A stretch of DNA of 29,246 nucleotides from a virus: IMG/VR virus record IMGVR_UViG_3300047277_000134, positions 1 to 29,246 of that record; one strand, 5' to 3'. Of the stretch, positions 17,478 through 29,246 are shown piece after piece (positions within the stretch are counted from its first letter, which is position 1; each line of letters begins with the position of its first letter). The position numbers and the translations under genes were made by a program. The notes under the pieces are model-generated. The model did no database searches. It was not told where the DNA came from and saw only the letters and a program-made list of their open reading frames with translations.

Positions 17478-18422
17478 TTATTCTTCTGAAGTAATGACTT
17501 CTAGTACACATTTTTCTTCAAGACGTGTACACCCTACAGACATTTTTGAGTAGATTTGGATTACGTCGCCTTTAGTTGGTAATCTATCGATCATTGTTGA
17601 CATATCTTCTGCTTTTACCATTAGTACGCCTTGTTTTACGAAAGCAATACAACGTCTAGCTTTAGTATAAGTTACAGTTCCCGAACCTGATCCGTAAACT
17701 CCAGTAGTAACATTGTAAGTAATGTTAGCAGAAGGTCGTCTTACAAGTTCAGTTCTTACGAATCTTATACCCATAAATTGATCTACAGCCCCAGCTACTA
17801 ATGCTTTAACACTGTTAAAGTCAGTAGAAGTTACAGCAGTAATTCCAAGTAAAGAATCGATTTCTTCAGCAGTTACTACTAAAACCAATTCTCCTTCAAC
17901 TTCATTTTGTTCAAATTTCTTTTTGATAGCTCTAAGAGTTGGGACGTTAAGACCAACACCGCTAGTAGTTGTACCATCGAAAGAGACTAGTTTTTGAGAT
18001 GTAGGAAGAGCAACAGAAATAGCGCCAGCTTTTCCTTGTTTAGCGTCTGCAAGAGCACCATCAAGAATAATACCATCCATTAAACGACCAAAGGCCATTT
18101 GGAATGCTTGAGAAATTGGAGCTTGTGGGTCATGGATCATATTCAATTTATCTAAATGATCAACGTACTCTGCTTTATCGTAAGATAAAAAAGAAGCCAT
18201 ACGTCTATCACGAGCAGTTTCAGACGGAACGATATCAGCATACTTGTTTACTCTTTGAGTAGGAGCTGCTGAAAGACCGTAGAAATCCCAGAATTGATTT
18301 TCTGCTTTTTGCATTTCAACTCGAACTAGACCAGCTAGACGAGAAGATTTTTGTTGGGCCAAGTGCCAAACGTTTGAATTGAACGAGTTTACATAATGAA
18401 CAGGTACTATTGATGTAGACAT
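17478..18422 (-). CDS. Major capsid protein, 314 aa
   Basis: The order scaffold, capsid, head protein, adaptor and the size fit a podoviral HK97-fold major capsid protein. The protein begins V-P-V-H-Y-V-N-S-F-N-S-N-V-W-H-L-A-Q-Q-K-S-S-R-L and contains an alternating alpha/beta body with P-T-L-R-A-I-K-K-K-F-E, E-L-V-L-V-V-T-A-E-E-I-D-S-L-L and a basic C-terminal strand region. It shows stronger codon bias and tighter sequence than neighbours. It has its own promoter with twin operators upstream, a strong TAGGAG ribosome site, and a hairpin downstream, consistent with high-level expression. Confidence 0.82.
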   Translation of the reverse strand: MSTSIVPVHYVNSFNSNVWHLAQQKSSRLAGLVRVEMQKAENQFWDFYGLSAAPTQRVNKYADIVPSETARDRRMASFLSYDKAEYVDHLDKLNMIHDPQAPISQAFQMAFGRLMDGIILDGALADAKQGKAGAISVALPTSQKLVSFDGTTTSGVGLNVPTLRAIKKKFEQNEVEGELVLVVTAEEIDSLLGITAVTSTDFNSVKALVAGAVDQFMGIRFVRTELVRRPSANITYNVTTGVYGSGSGTVTYTKARRCIAFVKQGVLMVKAEDMSTMIDRLPTKGDVIQIYSKMSVGCTRLEEKCVLEVITSEE

Positions 18423-19731: not shown

Positions 19732-21354
19732 CTATTGTTTCGGCTCAATAGCTTGTGCTTGGGCCATATTCTTTGTTGATTGAGAGTTCATCTGATCCAT
19801 CTGGGCCTGTTGAGCTGCTTGTTGTACCTGCTCTCTCTTAGTTTTAATGTCCTTAGTCTCTTTCTCAGTATGAAGTAAGTGTAAAGGAGCACCATACGAT
19901 TTATAGATAAATTTAGCTGTAGCATCTAAGTCAAGCACATCTATAATAGTTGGATCAGCTTGCGCAAATTGCATTACTGTTTGTAATGCCCTTACTGCCG
20001 AATCCCCCTCTACTGATTCTTGTGCTCTAGCTAGTTGAGATACAAATTTAATCTCTATTTTAGAGTGTGACAGTTCTTCTGGAGGAGGAGTTAATAACCC
20101 CTTTCTAGAAGCAATACCCATTACCCTAACAATAATTGGAGCGTGAAGTTCATACATTAATCTACCCAATATAGGAGAAAGCGTACGCAATTGTTCATCT
20201 CTTCTCATCTGTACTTCAGTAGCGGTCATTCTATCTGATTCAACCAAATGTAATTGATCGATATAGAATGCTTTCTGTATGTTTGCGTGAAGCAATTCAA
20301 TGATCTGGTTCCCAATTTGGGGGTTTGCCCCTGTAATAATTGGTTCAATTCTATCTTTAGAATCTGCTCTATAGTAATTTGTTCCTCCAGGAACGAATCG
20401 TACTGGAAGTAATACTCCCTCATCAGGGACTTGTAGAGGAGGATTGATTGCAAGTTGCGCTCCTTCTAGCCATACTTTCATCATTTGATTGGCTGTCTTA
20501 ACATCAGGAAGAGCATACATAGCAGGCCCTCTCCCGTACATCTCTCCTGAAAGTTTATAAAATCTAGAAATAATACAAGGATTTTCTTGGAACCCTTCAA
20601 TTTTTAATATTACAAAATGTTCTTTTAATACTTTTACAGAAGTAAAAGGTAGTAATGGGTGTCTTAGTCTTTCAGGCATTCTATCCGAAGGTTCTACAGC
20701 ATGGATAATTTCATATTCTTTTAAAGGGTCTTTAAAACGCAACTCCAATAATTCTTTAGGAAGAGAGTTTCCATACTCGCCATATAACTGATCAAGTGTT
20801 CTTTTATACTCATGGTAAGTTGTATCTATTACTCCCCTGTAGTTCTCAGAAATAGAACAATCGTAAATAGGTCTAGATTGAAATCTACATACTTCATCTT
20901 CATCTTCTTCAATTCTCAAATAAGAAGTATGCAAAGAACATAAATCTAAATAGACCTCGTGAATTTCTGACTGAAAATTAGAGTGATTTAAAATACCATT
21001 GATAGTCTTAGCAGTATCCTGTAACCATTTAGCGTTCTCTAATTTATTATCCGTTTCATGGTCTCCAGTAGAGAAACTAAACCACTGCACAGAAGGGTTA
21101 GTTAGCATACCATGTAGAGCTGATGCTAGTCTTTCAGATGAACGTCTTCCCGTTGAATCGAAAAGTTCTTGCCCCTTCTTTTCTCCAGGAACACTTCCAC
21201 CCCAAACATTACTTTTCTCTGGTAAAAAATAAGTAGTCAATTCTTTCCAGTGCGATTCCCATGAGGATTTATATAACTTTAATTTGTCGTATTTATTTAT
21301 TACATATTGAGATAATTCTTTATCCCTTGTGTTGTTTTGTACTACTGTTCCCAT
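19732..21354 (-). CDS. Portal / head-to-tail connector protein (T7 gp8-like), 540 aa
   Basis: Family features are visible from the start: Y-K-S-S-W-E-S-H-W-K-E-L-T-T-Y-F-L-P near residues 28-45, L-F-D-S-T-G-R-R-S-S-E-R-L-A-S-A-L-H-G-M-L-T-N-P-S-V-Q-W-F near 64-92, the G-R-G-P-A-M-Y-A-L-P-D-V-K-T-A-N segment, R-M-T-A-T-E-V-Q-M-R-R-D-E in the C-terminal half, and a Gln-rich C-terminal tail. Twelve copies of such proteins form the vertex through which DNA is packaged by the terminase and released. ATG at 21354 overlaps the stop of the upstream gene (TAATG). Confidence 0.9.
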   Translation of the reverse strand: MGTVVQNNTRDKELSQYVINKYDKLKLYKSSWESHWKELTTYFLPEKSNVWGGSVPGEKKGQELFDSTGRRSSERLASALHGMLTNPSVQWFSFSTGDHETDNKLENAKWLQDTAKTINGILNHSNFQSEIHEVYLDLCSLHTSYLRIEEDEDEVCRFQSRPIYDCSISENYRGVIDTTYHEYKRTLDQLYGEYGNSLPKELLELRFKDPLKEYEIIHAVEPSDRMPERLRHPLLPFTSVKVLKEHFVILKIEGFQENPCIISRFYKLSGEMYGRGPAMYALPDVKTANQMMKVWLEGAQLAINPPLQVPDEGVLLPVRFVPGGTNYYRADSKDRIEPIITGANPQIGNQIIELLHANIQKAFYIDQLHLVESDRMTATEVQMRRDEQLRTLSPILGRLMYELHAPIIVRVMGIASRKGLLTPPPEELSHSKIEIKFVSQLARAQESVEGDSAVRALQTVMQFAQADPTIIDVLDLDATAKFIYKSYGAPLHLLHTEKETKDIKTKREQVQQAAQQAQMDQMNSQSTKNMAQAQAIEPKQ

Positions 21355-21682: not shown

Positions 21683-23014
21683 CTACCTCTTGAAAGGGTC
21701 AAATTTAGTTTCCGCTTCTCTCGGAAAGCTCTTTGAGTTTATATCACCGCTTGACTTATAGCAAACACCTAATACTGCAAAAGCAGATGCCCCATGAGAA
21801 GCCCAATTGTGTAAAGGAGAATCTTGAAAAATGCCGTTCTTAGCGTCCCATTTTCTCTCGTAGTTCTTCAAAGCGTCAAGTCCTCTCATGCAATTAATCC
21901 TATCAAATTTAGCCGTCTTTAATAAAACCCTTACCGCATTTATTTGGTCAGCTACAGGAGTCTTCCTACCAAGTTTAGGTCTAATTCCAAGCAATTTCTT
22001 GGCAGTATTAACCCTCGAATTACCCGAACCCCACTCCCTAACCGCACCGTCATGTGGGAAAGTGTGCTCTGCGTAACTGTATCCCTTCTCCTTCAACTTC
22101 TGAGCATAATACTCTAATCCCTGCCCACTCATCTCAAGATAGTCTATAACGTGCATATGCTCCCCAATCTGCTGAGTAAACCAGATAGCGGTAGAATCAT
22201 CTACCCCTATATCCCACCACGTTTTAACTAGGTACTGAGGATCGTAAGGAAGATCACGGATACGCCCCTGTTGCTCTGCTTCCACCATGTACTTGCCATA
22301 GTAAGCTCCAACCAAGGCAGCTTGGAAAGAACACATAAACTCCTGATCAAACTCTTCCTCACTCATCTCAGCGCGTAAAGCCTCTAACTCTTCAGGTGGT
22401 ATAATACCTGTCTTATCCGCAGTAGCACAAAAAGCAAGCCATTTTAAATGGGGATTCTTAGACATGTTCAACTGAGCCGTCTGGAACATCTTGTAAAACT
22501 GATTCATTCCCTTAGGAGTACCAATAAATACCGCCCACCCAAGCCTGTCAGATAGCAATGGACGCACGATCTCCCCCCAGATAGAAGGAATCATCTGAGC
22601 AAACTCATCAAAGATACATCCGTCTAAATAAATCCCTCGAATACTATCAGGGTTCTCTGCTCCCAAAAGCCATATAGTAATAAAGTCACCCTTATCATGG
22701 CGAGGAATACGTATCCGTAACTTAGCTTCGTTCTTATCAATTCCTGGATAATGCTCGAACATCTCCTTCAAATACACCCAAGCAATACGCTCCGCTTGCC
22801 CATAAGTAGGAGCAATATACGCATACTGTGGATTATGATGGATACACTCAAGCCCTGCCGTGGCCAGCTCTGCCAGTGCAAACCGTGTCTTACCAAAACG
22901 TCTATGACAAACAGCTACGAAAAATCGTATCTTCCTCTGCCTTATAGTCTGGTGTAAATGTGCTTGTATAGGTCTTGGAGTATATCCAAAACTTATTATT
23001 TTTGTCTCAGCCAA
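21683..23014 (-). CDS. terL: Terminase large subunit, 443 aa
   Basis: The motor domain has a Walker A-like C-H-R-R-F-G-K-T (residues 36-43), Walker B G-C-I-F-D-E-F (Asp136-Glu137) and coupling motif G-T-P-K-G (165-169). The RNase H-like nuclease domain shows W-W-D-I-G (Asp268) and F-P-H-D-G (Asp322). The last nuclease motif reads S-H-G-A-S-A-F, where S-H-G-A-D-A-F is usual, so the third carboxylate is replaced by Ser or supplied elsewhere. The enzyme would translocate DNA into the procapsid and cut concatemers. The frame starts with TTG at 23014 behind an AGGA ribosome site; no ATG lies nearby. Confidence 0.92.
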   Translation of the reverse strand: MAETKIISFGYTPRPIQAHLHQTIRQRKIRFFVAVCHRRFGKTRFALAELATAGLECIHHNPQYAYIAPTYGQAERIAWVYLKEMFEHYPGIDKNEAKLRIRIPRHDKGDFITIWLLGAENPDSIRGIYLDGCIFDEFAQMIPSIWGEIVRPLLSDRLGWAVFIGTPKGMNQFYKMFQTAQLNMSKNPHLKWLAFCATADKTGIIPPEELEALRAEMSEEEFDQEFMCSFQAALVGAYYGKYMVEAEQQGRIRDLPYDPQYLVKTWWDIGVDDSTAIWFTQQIGEHMHVIDYLEMSGQGLEYYAQKLKEKGYSYAEHTFPHDGAVREWGSGNSRVNTAKKLLGIRPKLGRKTPVADQINAVRVLLKTAKFDRINCMRGLDALKNYERKWDAKNGIFQDSPLHNWASHGASAFAVLGVCYKSSGDINSKSFPREAETKFDPFKR

Positions 23015-23503: not shown

Positions 23504-24178
23504 TTATGTTTTTATATCTACATTTACCATAGTATCGGAAACACCCCAACGCTCCTGCAACACAGGAGTAGGCTCCACAGTAACCACAACTGTCTCCTTG
23601 TTACCCTTACCATCGTCAAATCCCTTAAAATTACCAAACTCATCGATAAGTATATCCTTCGGACCCTCAGAGTCAAGCACCCCTGTATGTAAAGTTATAT
23701 TGATACTCGCAGGACCAGAAACCTTGTCGTCCTTCTTGCCATAGTAATCTGGAGAAGCCTTCTCCGCTGCCCACTTGTAACTGTCAATCCGTAACTTAGC
23801 CACAGGAACATCGTCCTTGCTAATAGCGTTCCTCGCTTCCTCGATCACTAAATCGTGGAATACATCTGCCCTCTGCTTCCTAGCTTGCTCATAGCGAATA
23901 CGGAACTCAGGGTGAAGGGACAGCCAAGCATAAATCCTACTAGACTCTGGCATGTCAGGCATACGGCAAATCTCACGAAGCGTCTTACCCGTTCTGATAT
24001 GGTTGCAAAGTTTATCCACTAATAATAGGCAGTAAACAAAATGAGAAGTATCAGGAACAGACTCCACTACGCAAAGTTTTCCAGTGTTAAGGTCTATTGT
24101 CTCATACGCTAATGTTGATTTGTTATAAATATGATATAAATTAGGTTCTGCGTTCTGTACAGATAGTGCATTTTCCAA
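23504..24178 (-). CDS. terS: Terminase small subunit, Sf6-type, 224 aa
   Basis: The central region (T-G-K-T-L-R-E-I-C-R-M-P-D-M-P-E-S-S-R-I-Y-A-W-L...P-E-F-R-I-R-Y-E-Q-A-R) is the helix-turn-helix DNA-recognition pattern of Sf6-like small terminases. It is followed by the oligomerising helix with L-R-I-D-S-Y-K-W-A-A-E-K-A-S-P-D-Y-Y-G. The protein would bind the packaging site and load the large subunit. The frame begins with TTG at 24178 behind a strong AAGGAGG; the nearby ATG is out of frame. It is first in the leftward operon, next to the repeat array. Confidence 0.88.
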   Translation of the reverse strand: MENALSVQNAEPNLYHIYNKSTLAYETIDLNTGKLCVVESVPDTSHFVYCLLLVDKLCNHIRTGKTLREICRMPDMPESSRIYAWLSLHPEFRIRYEQARKQRADVFHDLVIEEARNAISKDDVPVAKLRIDSYKWAAEKASPDYYGKKDDKVSGPASINITLHTGVLDSEGPKDILIDEFGNFKGFDDGKGNKETVVVTVEPTPVLQERWGVSDTMVNVDIKT

Positions 24179-24318: not shown

Positions 24319-24447
24319 TTATATTTTAGGCGGTTTAACTGTTTGAGGTTCTGCGTAGTTACTCATCTCGTTTTTTTGTATCGCGAGAGCAGTGCACCAA
24401 ATCCATAATCCTCGACGAGCGTTGGGGGGGGTAGGGGTGCTTGTATG

Positions 24448-24669
24448 CGTGTACGCGCGATAAGGAGCCGTGTACGCGCGATAAGGAGCCGTGTACGCGC
24501 GATAAGGAGCCGTGTACGCGCGATAAGGAGCCGTGTGCGCGCGATAAGGAGCCGTGTGCGCGCGATAAGGAGCCGTGTGCGCGCGATAAGGAGCCGTGTG
24601 CTTACTCATGTGCGCGCGATAAGGAAACGTGTGTACGCGTGTCGTGCGCTCGTGAGCGCGATAAAAGGA
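24448..24669. repeat. 21-bp iteron-like tandem array
   Basis: Seven contiguous 21-bp units run from 24448 to 24594. Each contains CGCGCGATAAGGAGC after CGTGTA (first four) or CGTGTG (last three). Diverged copies follow at about 24609-24630 and 24654-24669. Unit length is two helical turns. The alternating pyrimidine-purine part (GTGTGCGCGCG) is GC-rich against the AT-rich background and could adopt Z-DNA. The region sits between divergent operons and next to the small terminase gene. A replication origin or a packaging (pac) recognition site are the main options. The open frames across it are by-products of a repeat length divisible by three. Confidence 0.85.
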
Positions 24670-24672
24670 TAT

Positions 24673-24755
24673 GGTGTCACTTTGACCCCAGATCGGTGTC
24701 ACTTTGACCCCAGTGGTGTCACTTTGGCCCCATGCTCAGTGTCACTTTGACCCCA
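24673..24755 (+). promoter_or_regulatory. Four tandem GGTGTCACTTTGACCCCA boxes, candidate activator sites (copy A)
   Basis: Boxes begin at 24673, 24695, 24715 and 24738; the last two differ by one base each. Spacing of 20-23 bp puts them on the same helix face. They lie 30-110 bp upstream of a sigma-54 promoter, where enhancer-binding proteins bind. The same boxes recur upstream of the ubiquitin-like gene. Confidence 0.7.
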
Positions 24756-24784
24756 TGCCCTACGGAATCTCAGCTACTTACGAC

Positions 24785-25474: not shown

Positions 25475-25519
25475 GCCATAAATTACAGCCACTTTATAGC
25501 TAAACAATTTTTATTACTT

Positions 25520-25863
25520 GTTACACTTGTTACATGTTACAGCTACTTCCCAACACTTTCACGTATATGTGTTTTTCATTTTTCTCTCGGGACCTGTTTT
25601 TTGCATTGATTAAAGTTATAGAACTAGTATTGTAACATACACCTAAACCTTGCCAAAATCCCTGTAATATCGGTCATGTTACATGTTACAGCTACGCAAA
25701 AGTTTGCATGGCAGAAACGCATCTTGTCACTGTAACATTTTTACGTCAGTTTTGAGTCATTTCGTAACGCACGAGATAATACTCCATGTGTCTATACAAT
25801 CTTCATTTTGATGCCTATAATCATGTTACAGCGACACCTACAGTCACGTTTTGGGGTTGTAAC
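25520..25863. promoter_or_regulatory. Cluster of GTTACA / TGTAAC motifs in three inverted-pair modules
   Basis: The gene-free stretch 25346-26347 contains GTTACA at 25520, 25529, 25536, 25678, 25685 and 25825, and TGTAAC at 25631, 25731 and 25858. In each of three modules a rightward ATGTTACA is followed by its inverse TGTAACAT (9-bp perfect arms at 25683-25691 and 25730-25738). Nine hexamers in about 345 bases is far above chance. Rightward copies extend to GTTACAGCTAC or GTTACAGCGAC. They look like binding sites for a dimeric DNA-binding protein; function is unknown. Confidence 0.65.
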
Positions 25864-26041: not shown

Positions 26042-26179
26042 TCGGCACTGACGGCAAGAAACGTGCCAATTTGGATCGGTGTCACTTTGACCCCAGATCG
26101 GTGTCACTTTGTCCCACGGCAAGAAACGTGCCAAGTCGTAACGGTGTCACTTCGGCACTGACGGCAAGAAGTGTGCCAA
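26042..26179 (-). promoter_or_regulatory. Three repeated sigma-54-like elements facing left
   Basis: ACGGCAAGAAACGTGCCAA occurs at 26051-26069 and 26116-26134, and a variant at 26161-26179. On the minus strand each reads TTGGCAC-N6-TTGC, keeping the -24 GG and -12 GC at the correct 12-bp spacing. Expected starts would be near 26042, 26107 and 26152. A CTTGCCGT at 26031-26038 also pairs with ACGGCAAG at 26051-26058. No gene lies to the left for 700 bases, so they may drive RNA, bind RNA polymerase non-productively, or be repeats of another kind. Confidence 0.5.
26078..26152 (+). promoter_or_regulatory. GGTGTCACTTTGACCCCA boxes, candidate activator sites (copy B)
   Basis: One perfect box at 26078-26095, a second with one change at 26100-26116 and a partial one at 26143-26150. 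The 34 bases 26078-26111 are identical to 24673-24706 including the spacer. They lie 57-130 bp upstream of sigma-54 promoter B. Confidence 0.7.
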
Positions 26180-26208
26180 CACTGGCAATGTGAAATCGGT
26201 AGGTTAGC

Positions 26209-26225
26209 TTGGCACGGCAATTGCA
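26209..26225 (+). promoter_or_regulatory. Sigma-54 (-24/-12) promoter, copy B
   Basis: TTGGCACGGCAATTGCA matches the sigma-54 consensus at all fixed positions and shares 16 of 17 bases with copy A. The expected start is G26236, which is exactly the first base of the hairpin described next. It precedes the ubiquitin-like operon. Confidence 0.75.
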
Positions 26226-26235
26226 AGGTCAATTC

Positions 26236-26347: not shown

Positions 26348-26554
26348 ATGATTACAGTAACAGTTAAGATAATGGGACGAGCACAACCTGAAGTAATAGA
26401 GGATTTTTCAGGAACAACAGTACAAGAATTAATGAACAGACTCAACCTAGCAGGGAACTACACGATTAATATTGGCGGTGTACCTGCTCAAACAACATCA
26501 ACTCTTGTATTTGGTAGCTACGTTGTATTCGCCCCAAGCGTAAAGGGCGCATAG
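26348..26554 (+). CDS. Ubiquitin-like beta-grasp modifier (MoaD/ThiS-type), 68 aa
   Basis: The chain fits a beta-grasp fold: strand M-I-T-V-T-V-K-I-M, second strand, helix T-V-Q-E-L-M-N-R-L-N-L, then Y-T-I-N-I-G-G-V-P-A...L-V-F-G-S-Y-V-V-F-A-P-S-V-K-G-A. Spacing and the F-A-P-x-V-K-G end are typical of the small bacterial Ub-like proteins encoded with E1, E2 and JAB genes. The C-terminus is Gly67-Ala68, not Gly-Gly, so removal of Ala would expose a conjugable Gly. An AGGAGAT ribosome site precedes ATG. The gene lies behind sigma-54 promoter B and is followed by a terminator, then by the E2, E1 and protease genes. A sulfur carrier is the alternative, less likely given the E2-like neighbour. 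Confidence 0.85.
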   Translation: MITVTVKIMGRAQPEVIEDFSGTTVQELMNRLNLAGNYTINIGGVPAQTTSTLVFGSYVVFAPSVKGA

Positions 26555-26565
26555 TCTCCTATATT

Positions 26566-26589
26566 AGCGGTAGAAATACCGCTTCTTTT
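26566..26589 (+). terminator. Intrinsic terminator after the ubiquitin-like gene
   Basis: AGCGGTA (26566-26572), GAAA tetraloop, TACCGCT (26577-26583), then TCTTTT. A stable 7-bp stem with a short U-rich tract is likely to terminate part of the transcripts, so the modifier mRNA should exceed that of the downstream enzymes. Confidence 0.75.
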
Positions 26590-26663
26590 ATTGAACTGGC
26601 AATCTAAGTCTTGTCAATTGAATAAAGGAATATTTTTTCCTTATACAAACACTGGAGGTTATT

Positions 26664-27908
26664 ATGTTTGTCGAATCTGGAGAGTTACTTACGCCCGCTT
26701 TTAAGCGAGCTATCTACGACAATCCCTTGTTACAAAATTTCGAGACTAACAAGGAATTACTGGAAAGTTTAAAGAACAGTAACGATGGGAATTCTCAGGA
26801 AATTGAGAGGCGTGAAAGAGAGCTAGTGGGGCTTAAAATCAGTTTAAATGTAGGTACTCAGAAAGTAGGACGATTTATAACAAGTCAAGCACTTCTGGCA
26901 AAGCTGATAGATAAAAATAAGAATGATATTAACATTGACTTCTTTGATAAAGAGAAGATTGAAGCGTTTTTTAATTCTATGTCCTTGACATTTGTGGATT
27001 TATATTTATCGACAGATTGTTATGAAGGGGTACTAACGTATATAAGACCTACTAGGTATATTGAAGCCATGCCTGTGCCTCCTTTAATGATAAAAGTTAT
27101 GTATATTTTAAAGAATAATGTTTTGACTTTTAGTACCGTACACGTAAGGACTGTCATTAGGGCTGTTTCTCTTTCTTTTATACACCCTCATATATCTAGT
27201 ATTACTAATGGTAATGTTAAGATATGTCTAGGTAATTTTATAGATGTATTAAGTGAAAATAGTGCTTCTGTAGTGATTAGTGGGTATCAAGATCACGTTG
27301 TAATGATTGAGAATTTATTATCTACATATAATTCTGATTCTCCTTATATTTCATTAAATGAGTTATCACTGTCAATGCTTACTACTGATGTATTCCACTG
27401 TTCTCCACATAAAATACAGGCATCAGGATTCAGTATATTGGGCAAAAGAATAGAAGACCACATTGTAAATAGATCAATTGGTTATCCGTATAATATTAAA
27501 GTAATTGAGTTAATTGGATTGGATGAATTAGTTAAATGGGAAGAGGCGGTTAAGAAGAATACATACTCTTCTATACTAGAAGAGACTTTATTAGGAATAT
27601 CTTTTCTTGATCACGATGGCGATGATTACGAGATGCTTCAGAGTTTAACCTCTTATAGAAAAAAATTAATTACGGTATTTGGAGAGGGGTTAGATAATCC
27701 TAATGAGTATTCATATTTTGAAGATGGTGAAGATGGTGATGATGAAGAGAGTGATACTAATTTACAAAGAATTAGTGAAGATAGTTTTAATGACGTATTA
27801 GAACAGTGGACTAGGTATTTAAAGGGACGTGGACAAGGTGTATTTAATATTAAAGTAGCTGAATTTAGAATCTTTATTACAGAAGAGGTATCAAATGTAC
27901 TTAACTAG
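26664..27908 (+). CDS. E2-like ubiquitin-conjugating-type protein, 414 aa
   Basis: Residues 174-176 H-P-H followed by I-S-S-I-T-N-G-N-V-K-I-C-L-G (Cys188) reproduce the E2 active-site pattern H-P-x-(I/V)...G-x-(I/V)-C-L, with the candidate catalytic Cys in C-L-G. The preceding V-M-Y-I-L-K-N...L-T-F-S-T-V-H strands and the P-V-P-P loop, and the following I-E-N-L-L-S-T-Y-N-S-D-S-P-Y-I, fit the UBC/RWD-type fold of bacterial E2-like proteins. It is much longer than a bare E2 (about 150 residues). The N-terminal 90 residues are helical, and the C-terminal part contains a helical region and an acidic stretch (351-366). A GGAGG site precedes ATG. The E1 gene overlaps its 3' end by 14 bases. Transfer of the modifier to a target is inferred. 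Confidence 0.78.
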   Translation: MFVESGELLTPAFKRAIYDNPLLQNFETNKELLESLKNSNDGNSQEIERRERELVGLKISLNVGTQKVGRFITSQALLAKLIDKNKNDINIDFFDKEKIEAFFNSMSLTFVDLYLSTDCYEGVLTYIRPTRYIEAMPVPPLMIKVMYILKNNVLTFSTVHVRTVIRAVSLSFIHPHISSITNGNVKICLGNFIDVLSENSASVVISGYQDHVVMIENLLSTYNSDSPYISLNELSLSMLTTDVFHCSPHKIQASGFSILGKRIEDHIVNRSIGYPYNIKVIELIGLDELVKWEEAVKKNTYSSILEETLLGISFLDHDGDDYEMLQSLTSYRKKLITVFGEGLDNPNEYSYFEDGEDGDDEESDTNLQRISEDSFNDVLEQWTRYLKGRGQGVFNIKVAEFRIFITEEVSNVLN

Positions 27909-28563
27909 GCACAGGGATATATTAGGACAAATAGACCTTAACTACCCTATCAATATTATAGGGGCGGGTTCTATTGGCAGTTATGCGTGTTTGGCACTAG
28001 CTAAACTTGGCTTTACTGATATTACTATTGCAGACGATGGTAAAGTGGAGGAAGAAAATATTGCCCCACAATTATATAGGCTAAAGGATATTGGTAAATT
28101 TAAAGTAGATTGTTTAAAGAGAATGATAAAGGAGCAGACGGGAGTTGATATTATTGCAATTCCTACAAGGATTAATACTCTTAATACTGATCACGTAGAG
28201 GGAGGACTAACAATATTGGCAGTAGATACAATGACAGCGAGGAAAATATTATTCGTTTCTATTTGTTCTTCTTTTTTTATTGATGCACGAATGGCCATTG
28301 AGTTTTTGACTATTATTTCTATTAAGTCAGGGCCTATATTCAACAAACAGCATAAATATTACTCTGATACTTTATTTGACGATAGTGATGCAGTTCAGGA
28401 AGCGTGTACTAATAAAGCAATTGCTTATACATCATTAATAGCGGGGGGATTGATTGCTAGGACAGTTATGGAACAGTTGAGGGATAAAGATAATTACAGA
28501 TCGCAGACATTGAATTTTGATATTAATAATTTAGATATGGTGAGGTTAATATGCCCAGAATAA
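27895..28563 (+). CDS. ThiF/E1-like modifier-activating enzyme, 222 aa
   Basis: The Rossmann-type adenylation domain shows I-I-G-A-G-S-I-G-S (nucleotide loop, 21-29), the acidic pair A-D-D at 46-48, N-I-A-P-Q-L-Y-R-L-K-D-I-G-K-F-K (55-70, the N...R...K signature) and L-A-V-D-T-M-T-A-R (Asp111, Arg116). Cys171 in E-A-C-T-N-K-A is the candidate thioester cysteine. There is no zinc-binding CxxC pair. Such enzymes adenylate the modifier's C-terminal Gly with ATP and pass it to E2. The length is that of a minimal E1-like protein. AGAGG precedes ATG. It overlaps the E2 gene by 14 bases and the JAB gene by 13 bases, so all three are translationally coupled. Confidence 0.87.
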   Translation: MYLTRHRDILGQIDLNYPINIIGAGSIGSYACLALAKLGFTDITIADDGKVEEENIAPQLYRLKDIGKFKVDCLKRMIKEQTGVDIIAIPTRINTLNTDHVEGGLTILAVDTMTARKILFVSICSSFFIDARMAIEFLTIISIKSGPIFNKQHKYYSDTLFDDSDAVQEACTNKAIAYTSLIAGGLIARTVMEQLRDKDNYRSQTLNFDINNLDMVRLICPE

Positions 28564-29246
28564 TAATTCCTTTAGAGATAAAGACTAAAATACAATTTAT
28601 AGTTGATAATTGTAGCATGGAAGTAAGCGGATTAGGTACAGTTAAATTTGATGTAGAAGAAAATGCTTATAGAGTAATTGATGTAATTTTATTAGATCAA
28701 GAGGTAGGTTCTGCTCATACTGACCTTGATGATAATGCCGTAGCTAGGGCTTGTTATGATATGAGAGACAGTGAAGGAGAGTTGGCGTTTTGGTGGCATA
28801 GTCACGTTAATATGTCTACTAATTGGTCAGGTCAAGATTATGAGACTATGGGTTTAATTGGCAAGCATGGGCTTTGTGTTGCAGTAGTATTTAATAAAAA
28901 GAATGAGATGCGAGGGGCATTAGCAATGTCTCCAGTAGGTTTTCCTTATATTAGATTGGACAATGTAAAAATAGATATTGAATACGGACATACATTTAGT
29001 GATTTAGATTTATTGCAAGAGATAAAGGATAAGGTCAAGCCTAAAAAGTATGCCCCTATTGTTAATGAATATGAACATGGATACGGATACGGATACGGCC
29101 ATCAAAGTAATCAAAGTAAGCAAAGTAAGCAAAGTAAGCAAAGTAAGCAAAGTAAATCGGAAGATGAGCAATGGGAGACTGATATGAAAAACTATGCTCA
29201 TATTTGTTGGAAAGATATGACTACATTAGAGAAAGCGTCTTATAAA
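28551..29246 (+). CDS. JAB/JAMM metalloprotease (deubiquitinase-like), truncated by window end
   Basis: The 232 visible residues contain a complete JAMM motif: Glu24 in M-E-V-S-G-L-G, and H-S-H-V-N-M-S-T-N-W-S-G-Q-D with His83, His85, Ser93 and Asp96 at the exact HxH-x7-S-x2-D spacing. In Ub-like systems this zinc protease trims the modifier's C-terminus and removes it from targets. After the catalytic domain comes a low-complexity linker (G-Y-G-Y-G-Y-G-H, then Q-S-K repeats, 177-202) and the start of another region (D-M-K-N-Y-A-H-I-C-W) that continues past the edge. ATG at 28551 has GAGG 5 bases upstream and overlaps the E1 gene. Confidence 0.9.
   Translation, partial: MPRIIIPLEIKTKIQFIVDNCSMEVSGLGTVKFDVEENAYRVIDVILLDQEVGSAHTDLDDNAVARACYDMRDSEGELAFWWHSHVNMSTNWSGQDYETMGLIGKHGLCVAVVFNKKNEMRGALAMSPVGFPYIRLDNVKIDIEYGHTFSDLDLLQEIKDKVKPKKYAPIVNEYEHGYGYGYGHQSNQSKQSKQSKQSKQSKSEDEQWETDMKNYAHICWKDMTTLEKASYK
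29103..29156 (+). repeat. 9-bp in-frame microsatellite (CAAAGTAAG) in the JAB gene
   Basis: Six units of CAAAGTAAN encode a Gln-Ser-Lys/Asn repeat linker. Three GGATAC units just before it encode Gly-Tyr. Copy number changes would alter linker length without frameshift. Confidence 0.85.

Follow-up and report, generated by a model that had tools for sequence, protein, structure and literature searches.

A predicted ubiquitin-like conjugation cassette on a podovirus genome fragment and its relatives

Introduction

What use would a bacterial virus have for a whole set of ubiquitin-like conjugation genes? The question is raised by IMG/VR record IMGVR_UViG_3300047277_000134, a 29.2-kb linear virus record (29,246 nucleotides, the whole of which is referred to as the window) that is a fragment of a podovirus genome. 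Four consecutive genes at its right-hand end encode a small beta-grasp modifier, an E2-like protein, an E1-like activating enzyme and a JAB/JAMM metalloprotease. A preliminary description, made from the letters of the sequence, had taken them for a full phage-borne set for ubiquitin-like conjugation and deconjugation, a proposal that is supported by profiles of each part and by a second contig, L090. Assignment to this biochemical class is made with high confidence. Class and role taken jointly, the cassette probably constitutes a self-contained, reversible ubiquitin-like conjugation system in the early or replication arm of the podovirus. The early/replication role considered by itself is tentative.

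The four proteins and their predicted chemistry

The four open reading frames (ORFs) lie where they were first placed, all on the plus strand, and are listed with the features discussed below.

26348..26554, plus strand: ubiquitin-like modifier, 68 amino acids, beta-grasp, C-terminus -PSVKGA (AlphaFold2, Foldseek, profile A7)
26566..26583, plus strand: terminator-like hairpin AGCGGTAGAAATACCGCT with T-rich tail, between the modifier and E2 genes (sequence reading)
26664..27908, plus strand: E2-like (UBC) protein, 414 amino acids, core at about residues 97-245, additional regions at both ends of the chain (profile A9 against PDB)
27183..27233, plus strand: E2 active-site segment HPHISSITNGNVKICLG, residues 174-190, with His174 and Cys188 (family conservation)
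27895..28563, plus strand: E1-like activating enzyme, 222 amino acids (Pfam ThiF 1.6e-20)
28405..28407, plus strand: candidate catalytic Cys171 of the E1 (conserved in the family)
28551..29246, plus strand: JAB/JAMM metalloprotease, putative deconjugase, 232 amino acids, cut by the contig end (Prok-JAB 8e-5)

Single-sequence scans of IMG/VR with the window E1 and E2 found nothing. Relatives were collected by scans with family alignments, of which the JAB alignment gave 207 (80 kept) and the E1 alignment 122 (80 kept).

The E2-like protein, first recognised by its HPH...C signature, has no family match when searched alone. A profile of the E2 core (A9, 30 core domains) compared with all PDB sequences retrieves UBC enzymes: the best match has a value of 2.2e-4, all 60 matches listed are UBC-fold E2-type entries, and the alignment passes through HPN...C and the helix after it. 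This relation takes in the active-site Cys and speaks against the objection, raised in the preliminary description, that the 414-residue protein might have no UBC fold. Pfam UQ_con is matched by ten of the 30 cores and other families by at most one each. In the family the active-site Cys is kept in 144/144 members, the Pro in 139/144 and the His in 116/144; the window has His174 and Cys188 in HPHISSITNGNVKICLG. Matches to the E2 profile adjoin the E1 gene in 134 of 136 cases, the remaining two lying upstream of the JAB gene, and none was found among 10,391 shuffled ORFs, so the identification is not due to chance. PDB matches of a full-length E2 profile were discarded, being dominated by DNA polymerase beta over a helical region. 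By tblastn, neither the window E2 nor that of locus L102 has a match among phages, and the window E2 has none among plasmids.

The modifier has no match in single-sequence family searches. Its AlphaFold2 model, with a predicted local distance difference test (pLDDT) score of 92, is a ubiquitin-like beta-grasp that Foldseek relates with probability 1.0 to NEDD8, Mth1743, MoaD and ubiquitin, and the family profile A7 matches SAMP2 in the PDB (2.9e-10). All but one of the 122 modifier matches fall within the cassette. The window modifier ends in -VKGA rather than -GG; among 121 family members, GG is the ending in 80 and GA, GN or AG in 17, and relatives' tails are often ...KGG followed by one to three residues, or a long Lys-rich tail. 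At L090:5549-5869 and L014:3316-3564 the modifier genes run beyond ...VKGA into a Lys/Ala/Thr-rich tail, as if a precursor were made for trimming.

The E1-like enzyme contains a ThiF/E1 adenylation domain, as originally described. Its profile (A3, ten relatives) retrieves TcdA-type, UBA6, ThiF, NEDD8-activating (NAE) and SUMO-activating enzymes from the PDB. Across 165 distinct E1s, Gly23, Gly25, Asp47, Asn55 and Lys70 are invariant, 163 have Asp111, and of the 160 with a residue at position 171 all but one (159) have Cys, a conservation that marks a predicted ATP site and a candidate catalytic Cys.

In the JAB protein Glu24, His83, His85, Ser93 and Asp96 are invariant in family profile A8 (12/12 for Glu24) and make up the E...HxH-x7-S-x2-D metal site of JAMM/MPN+ proteins; HxH-x7-S-x2-D had been noticed from the beginning, and Glu24 is an addition. 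The motif is kept in 153/153 family members, its HxH partly by construction in the JAB scan, which selects HSHxxM; the E1 scan is free of this bias as regards both JAB and E2. The closest PDB relatives of A8 are not bacterial JABs but yeast RPN11 (2.1e-9) and its homologue from Caldiarchaeum. The ORF has no stop before the contig end, and few residues are likely to be missing because the JAB of the nearest relative has 240 amino acids.

From these protein families a cycle of four steps can be proposed. The JAMM protease would trim the residues beyond the ...KG end of the modifier. The E1 would adenylate the modifier glycine with ATP and form a thioester on Cys171, from which the modifier would move to Cys188 of the UBC-type E2 and be attached by it to target proteins. 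The JAMM protease would also remove the modifier. The likeliest role would be to modify host and/or phage proteins in this way early in infection, allowing the DNA of the element to establish itself and replicate.

The E2 and E1 genes of the window overlap by 14 nucleotides and the E1 and JAB genes by 13. Relatives' enzyme genes likewise abut or overlap (median -1 nucleotide for E2-JAB, -10 for JAB-E1), and a median gap of 75 nucleotides separates them from the modifier gene. Terminator-like hairpins occur at this modifier junction in 13 of 99 gaps, the window included, against 1.0 expected from shuffles, and in L090 a hairpin with T5 likewise follows the modifier gene. The hairpin suggests that the modifier may be made in excess and the enzymes in small amounts.

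Distribution of the cassette

Loci from the two scans contain 146 distinct E1s. Both E2 and JAB stand beside the E1 at 103 of these, and all four genes are present at 85. The order modifier-E2-JAB-E1 is found in 69 of the 85 four-gene loci and that of the window in five. In an E1 tree, rooted at the midpoint and with few outgroups, 125 of the 128 E1s that have an E2 neighbour fall in one clade (support 0.79); L090 and L017 are the window's sister group (0.98). Phages that carry the cassette are of very diverse kinds and sizes, with contigs of 27-208 kb. The cassette also occurs in bacterial metagenome-assembled genomes (MAGs) of Myxococcales, Planctomycetes and Uhrbacteria, and in one Thermoplasmata bin.

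Related genes are present in named phages. The cultured jumbo phage PhiXhv-12 of Xanthomonas (L007:1247-4621) encodes an 892-residue E2-like protein with HPHM...CLG and a Cys-rich, finger-like C-terminal tail, followed by an E1; this pair lies between DNA ligase and topoisomerase genes, and the Xanthomonas jumbo-phage pair stands beside topoisomerases. In the unannotated gut phage record MT835544 (L004:2137-5627), a small gene, a large gene with PHIDDYQCFRG, a JAB and an E1 follow in a row and adjoin reverse-transcriptase-like and integrase-like genes. In crAss001 (gp76-gp78, L006:977-4648) and Flavobacterium phage Fpv3 (L002), E1 and JAB homologues go under the annotations thiamine biosynthesis and metalloprotease; the crAss001 set is located near its primase.

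The podovirus contig

Leftward genes of the window encode TerS, TerL, portal, capsid protease, major capsid protein, tail proteins and endolysin. The terminase, portal and capsid genes that identify the contig as caudoviral are the following.

17478..18422, minus strand: major capsid protein (phrog_3437 1.5e-51)
19732..21354, minus strand: portal/head-tail adaptor, podovirus (phrog_332 8.7e-127; tblastn)
21683..23014, minus strand: large terminase subunit, TerL, divergent to the cassette (phrog_2 2.1e-39)
23504..24178, minus strand: small terminase subunit, TerS (phrog_1482 1.5e-27)

The closest named relatives of the portal are those of Pelagibacter podophages, at about 40% identity by tblastn. 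The window ORFs searched yielded no recognisable replication gene; a good part of the phage genome is therefore probably missing. Rfam gave no match within the window.

The preliminary description placed the cassette next to virion genes. The adjacency is real, but the cassette, which runs from 26348 to the contig end, is on the opposite strand and about 2.2 kb beyond TerS, behind 2.2 kb in which no virion gene runs leftward. Chimerism of the contig had been named as a way in which this association might fail. L090 (10.3 kb, from a different metagenome) has a TerL 77% identical to that of the window (scored as L232, which is L090's contig), an E1 56% identical to the window E1, and the same divergent arrangement of terminase, gap and modifier-E2-E1-JAB. 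Because terminase, cassette and layout recur there, the junction is no chimera, and guanine-plus-cytosine content agrees (0.34 in the cassette, 0.36 in the virion genes).

The gap holds several repeats. Upstream of TerS, 24427-24674 consists of seven to eight tandem copies of a 21-nucleotide unit, CGTGTACGCGCGATAAGGAGC, open in several frames and not found in L090. Repeats of GTGTCACTTTGACCC form two clusters about 1.3 kb apart (24673-24775 and 26042-26233), and GGCAAGAAACGTGCCAA repeats lie directly upstream of the modifier gene; these are possible operators or an origin, and neither was found in L090. TGTTACA/TGTAACA motifs recur upstream of the cassette in both contigs (window 25519-25696, L090 4489-4704).

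Neighbouring genes in the family

Neighbourhoods were surveyed on the contigs of 50 relatives. A TerL, sought as one family alone, is present on 29 of them, and the cassette diverges from it in 21 of the 27 contigs in which TerL was located. Within 3 kb downstream on the same strand, a primase follows the cassette on four contigs and a Sak4-type recombinase or annealing protein on nine (gaps of 61-153 nucleotides); on one contig a primase lies within 3 kb on the opposite strand. In Myxococcales, two cassette copies adjoin a DnaG-like primase, with a replication-relaxation protein (Replic_Relax) or a TrwB-like coupling-protein ATPase upstream. The most constant neighbours are thus genes of mobile-element DNA replication and recombination, not virion genes. 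Divergence from TerL, together with the primase, Sak4 and DnaG-like neighbours, places the cassette in the early/replication arm and not in the virion module. This position in turn speaks for a part in the establishment or replication of the element, one that might take the form of counter-defence.

One Myxococcales MAG carries several cassette copies (L170, L173 and L179). Their occurrence on several contigs and the primase and coupling-protein neighbours point to mobile elements, and the Myxococcales cassettes probably lie on integrative or conjugative ones. In two large phages, directly downstream of the cassette, lies the gene of an AAA+ unfoldase of ClpC type whose N-terminus carries a Cys-rich finger (L091:11245-13776, L100:10941-13460), which suggests tag-linked unfolding or proteolysis. 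ClpS, as a downstream adaptor, was not found in the 50 relatives.

Comparison with known systems

The PRTRC cassette, which we take to be the same as the bacterial operon type called 6d, resembles that of the window in having separate ubiquitin-like, E2, E1 and JAB genes on mobile DNA, and the window E1 matches PRTRC_ThiF weakly (5.8e-12). Its score of 45.4 bits lies far below the equivalog cut-off of 144.75, and the window E2, modifier and JAB match no PRTRC family. Type 6d, one of the bacterial ubiquitin-like/E1/E2/JAB operon types 6a-6e described alongside a phage TAPI-TAPK pair, comprises a ubiquitin-like protein, JAB, E1, E2 and a helical protein, its E2 having no His before the Cys (Iyer et al., 2006; PMC1779556). 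The window E2, in contrast, has His174 before Cys188 (HPH...C), as do 116 of 144 relatives.

CBASS Cap2/Cap3 shares with the cassette a related E1-type adenylation domain (Cap2 7tsq, 3.5e-9), an E2-like Cys and a JAB protease. Cap2 is, however, an E2-E1 fusion that conjugates the CD-NTase and has no dedicated modifier gene, whereas here the genes are separate and include their own modifier. Among 50 records (the window, itself a fragment, and 49 relatives) none has a CD-NTase (SMODS), and PADLOC gives no match for the window E2 or modifier and only weak CBASS matches for E1 and JAB; the cassette is therefore not a CBASS operon. Bil and related bacterial operons also combine a modifier, E1, E2 and JAB, while the present cassette is phage-encoded and lies in the early/replication arm. 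No Bil-named model appears among the PADLOC and NCBIfam matches listed, libraries that cannot decide BilA-D membership.

Likeness to the archaeal SAMP/UbaA/JAMM1 and Caldiarchaeum ubiquitin systems lies in a modifier nearest SAMP2 and a JAB that matches RPN11 and its Caldiarchaeum homologue; unlike them, the cassette is a compact viral operon whose UBC-type E2 adjoins phage replication genes, and no RING protein was seen. The TAPI-TAPK genes of lambda and T1 are also phage-borne and encode a ubiquitin-like and a JAB domain, but they are late tail genes without E1 or E2 (PMC1779556). In crAss001, gp76-gp78 contain E1 and JAB homologues in order, with the Cys and JAMM residues shared, and no modifier gene was found there. 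Its gp78 has HSH...CxG and a PY motif, a suggestive pattern for an E2; profile comparison (probability 19%) did not establish the relation. These genes go without mention in some open crAss-phage papers. No description of a replication-linked phage cassette of E1, E2, modifier and JAB was found in the open literature, weak evidence given that preprints and most subscription papers fall outside it.

Weighing the proposed role

Several observations weigh against a conjugation system of the early/replication arm. On the side of the chemistry, the E2 was modelled poorly at full length (pLDDT 56); with this model Foldseek finds nothing significant, and VIA gives a weak UBC match (2a7l, Z 3.9, 81 residues, root-mean-square deviation 3.0, residues 109-220) below top rows rejected as long-helix noise. 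The E2 is also highly divergent, the window sharing 13-21% with most relatives, and the -KGA end of the modifier means that a working C-terminal glycine requires the trimming of one residue. No E3 is apparent in the cassette. On the side of the role, six TerLs run in the direction of the cassette, and a primase or Sak4 lies within 3 kb on only 14 of the 50 contigs, so the replication link is not universal, although the survey covered two families and the link may extend wider. The cassette is accessory, for the TerL relatives L243 and L244 have a primase arm without it. (L233, 36 kb, TerL 75%, was not used as a cassette-free case, since only 1.3 kb of its contig remains upstream of TerL.) Finally, an early-arm position also suits defence or anti-defence genes.

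Defence is the main rival, though an unlikely one. As Bil- or CBASS Cap2-like cargo used against phages or in competition between them, the cassette would shield the infected or lysogenised cell by tagging proteins of superinfecting phages, whether from the virion or not. Bil acts in phage defence. Tested bacterial ubiquitin-like operons in general act against phage (CBASS: PMC10097602), and an accessory cassette, found on bacterial mobile elements and in several copies per Myxococcales genome, is consistent with such a function. The lack of a CD-NTase and of PADLOC matches for E2 and modifier argues the other way, as does the occurrence of the cassette in phages that vary widely in size and kind; in several sampled groups it abuts replication or recombination genes and is not in a defence island.

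Counter-defence, in which the system or the JAMM protease alone would disturb the host's immunity, ubiquitin-like or other, as the phage enters, is improbable as the whole explanation. The first operon of the early arm is a usual place for anti-defence genes, and a JAMM protease could strip host conjugates, but a full conjugation set exceeds what a counter-protease needs, and the four genes are kept together in most cassettes.

Slightly less probable again is that capsid or tail proteins of the phage itself receive the modifier while virions are assembled, an option raised in the preliminary description and no longer favoured. A full virion module does share the contig, and lambda-type tail genes encode a ubiquitin-like TAPI and a JAB-containing TAPK (PMC1779556). 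Those systems have neither E2 nor E1, however, and the cassette is on the strand opposite to the virion genes and, across the family, diverges from terminase (21/27) and runs with the replication/recombination arm.

A sulfur-carrier or other small-molecule pathway, in which E1 and modifier would donate sulfur in the manner of ThiF and ThiS and the JAMM protease would free the carrier without protein tagging, is the least probable of all: the E1 is of the ThiF superfamily, five modifier relatives match ThiS weakly and sulfur-carrier operons with JAB enzymes are on record (PMC1779556, rows 4a-4e), but the operon includes a UBC-type E2 with HPx...C, the JAB profile is nearest RPN11, the E1 has no rhodanese fusion, and no biosynthetic gene was recognised in the cassettes listed.

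Implications

A wider proposal, which must be called doubtful, is that the cassettes form a widespread class of ubiquitin-like systems, encoded by viruses and mobile elements and equipped with canonical UBC-type E2s, that are tied to replication and recombination modules and reversibly modify replisome or recombination proteins, a viral counterpart of the control of replication by ubiquitin and SUMO in eukaryotes. In some large phages (L091, L100) the cassette may feed the phage ClpC unfoldase directly downstream.

Bacterial ubiquitin-like operons have so far been regarded mostly as anti-phage weapons; here phages of many lineages carry the whole set beside their DNA-copying genes, which suggests that protein tagging, familiar from nucleated cells, takes place at an early stage of infection by many phages. 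Cultured Xanthomonas jumbo phages (E1-E2 pair), crAss001 and Flavobacterium phages (E1 and JAB homologues) offer entry points tractable in the laboratory. Should the prediction hold, compact four-gene systems of E1, E2, modifier and deconjugase would become available to biochemistry, and protein tagging would prove a common tool of bacterial viruses. The E2 active site, 'HPHVSSxGxICWG', closely resembles the HPN...C site of eukaryotes, and given this likeness the cassettes would also be a place to seek the ancestry of eukaryotic ubiquitination.

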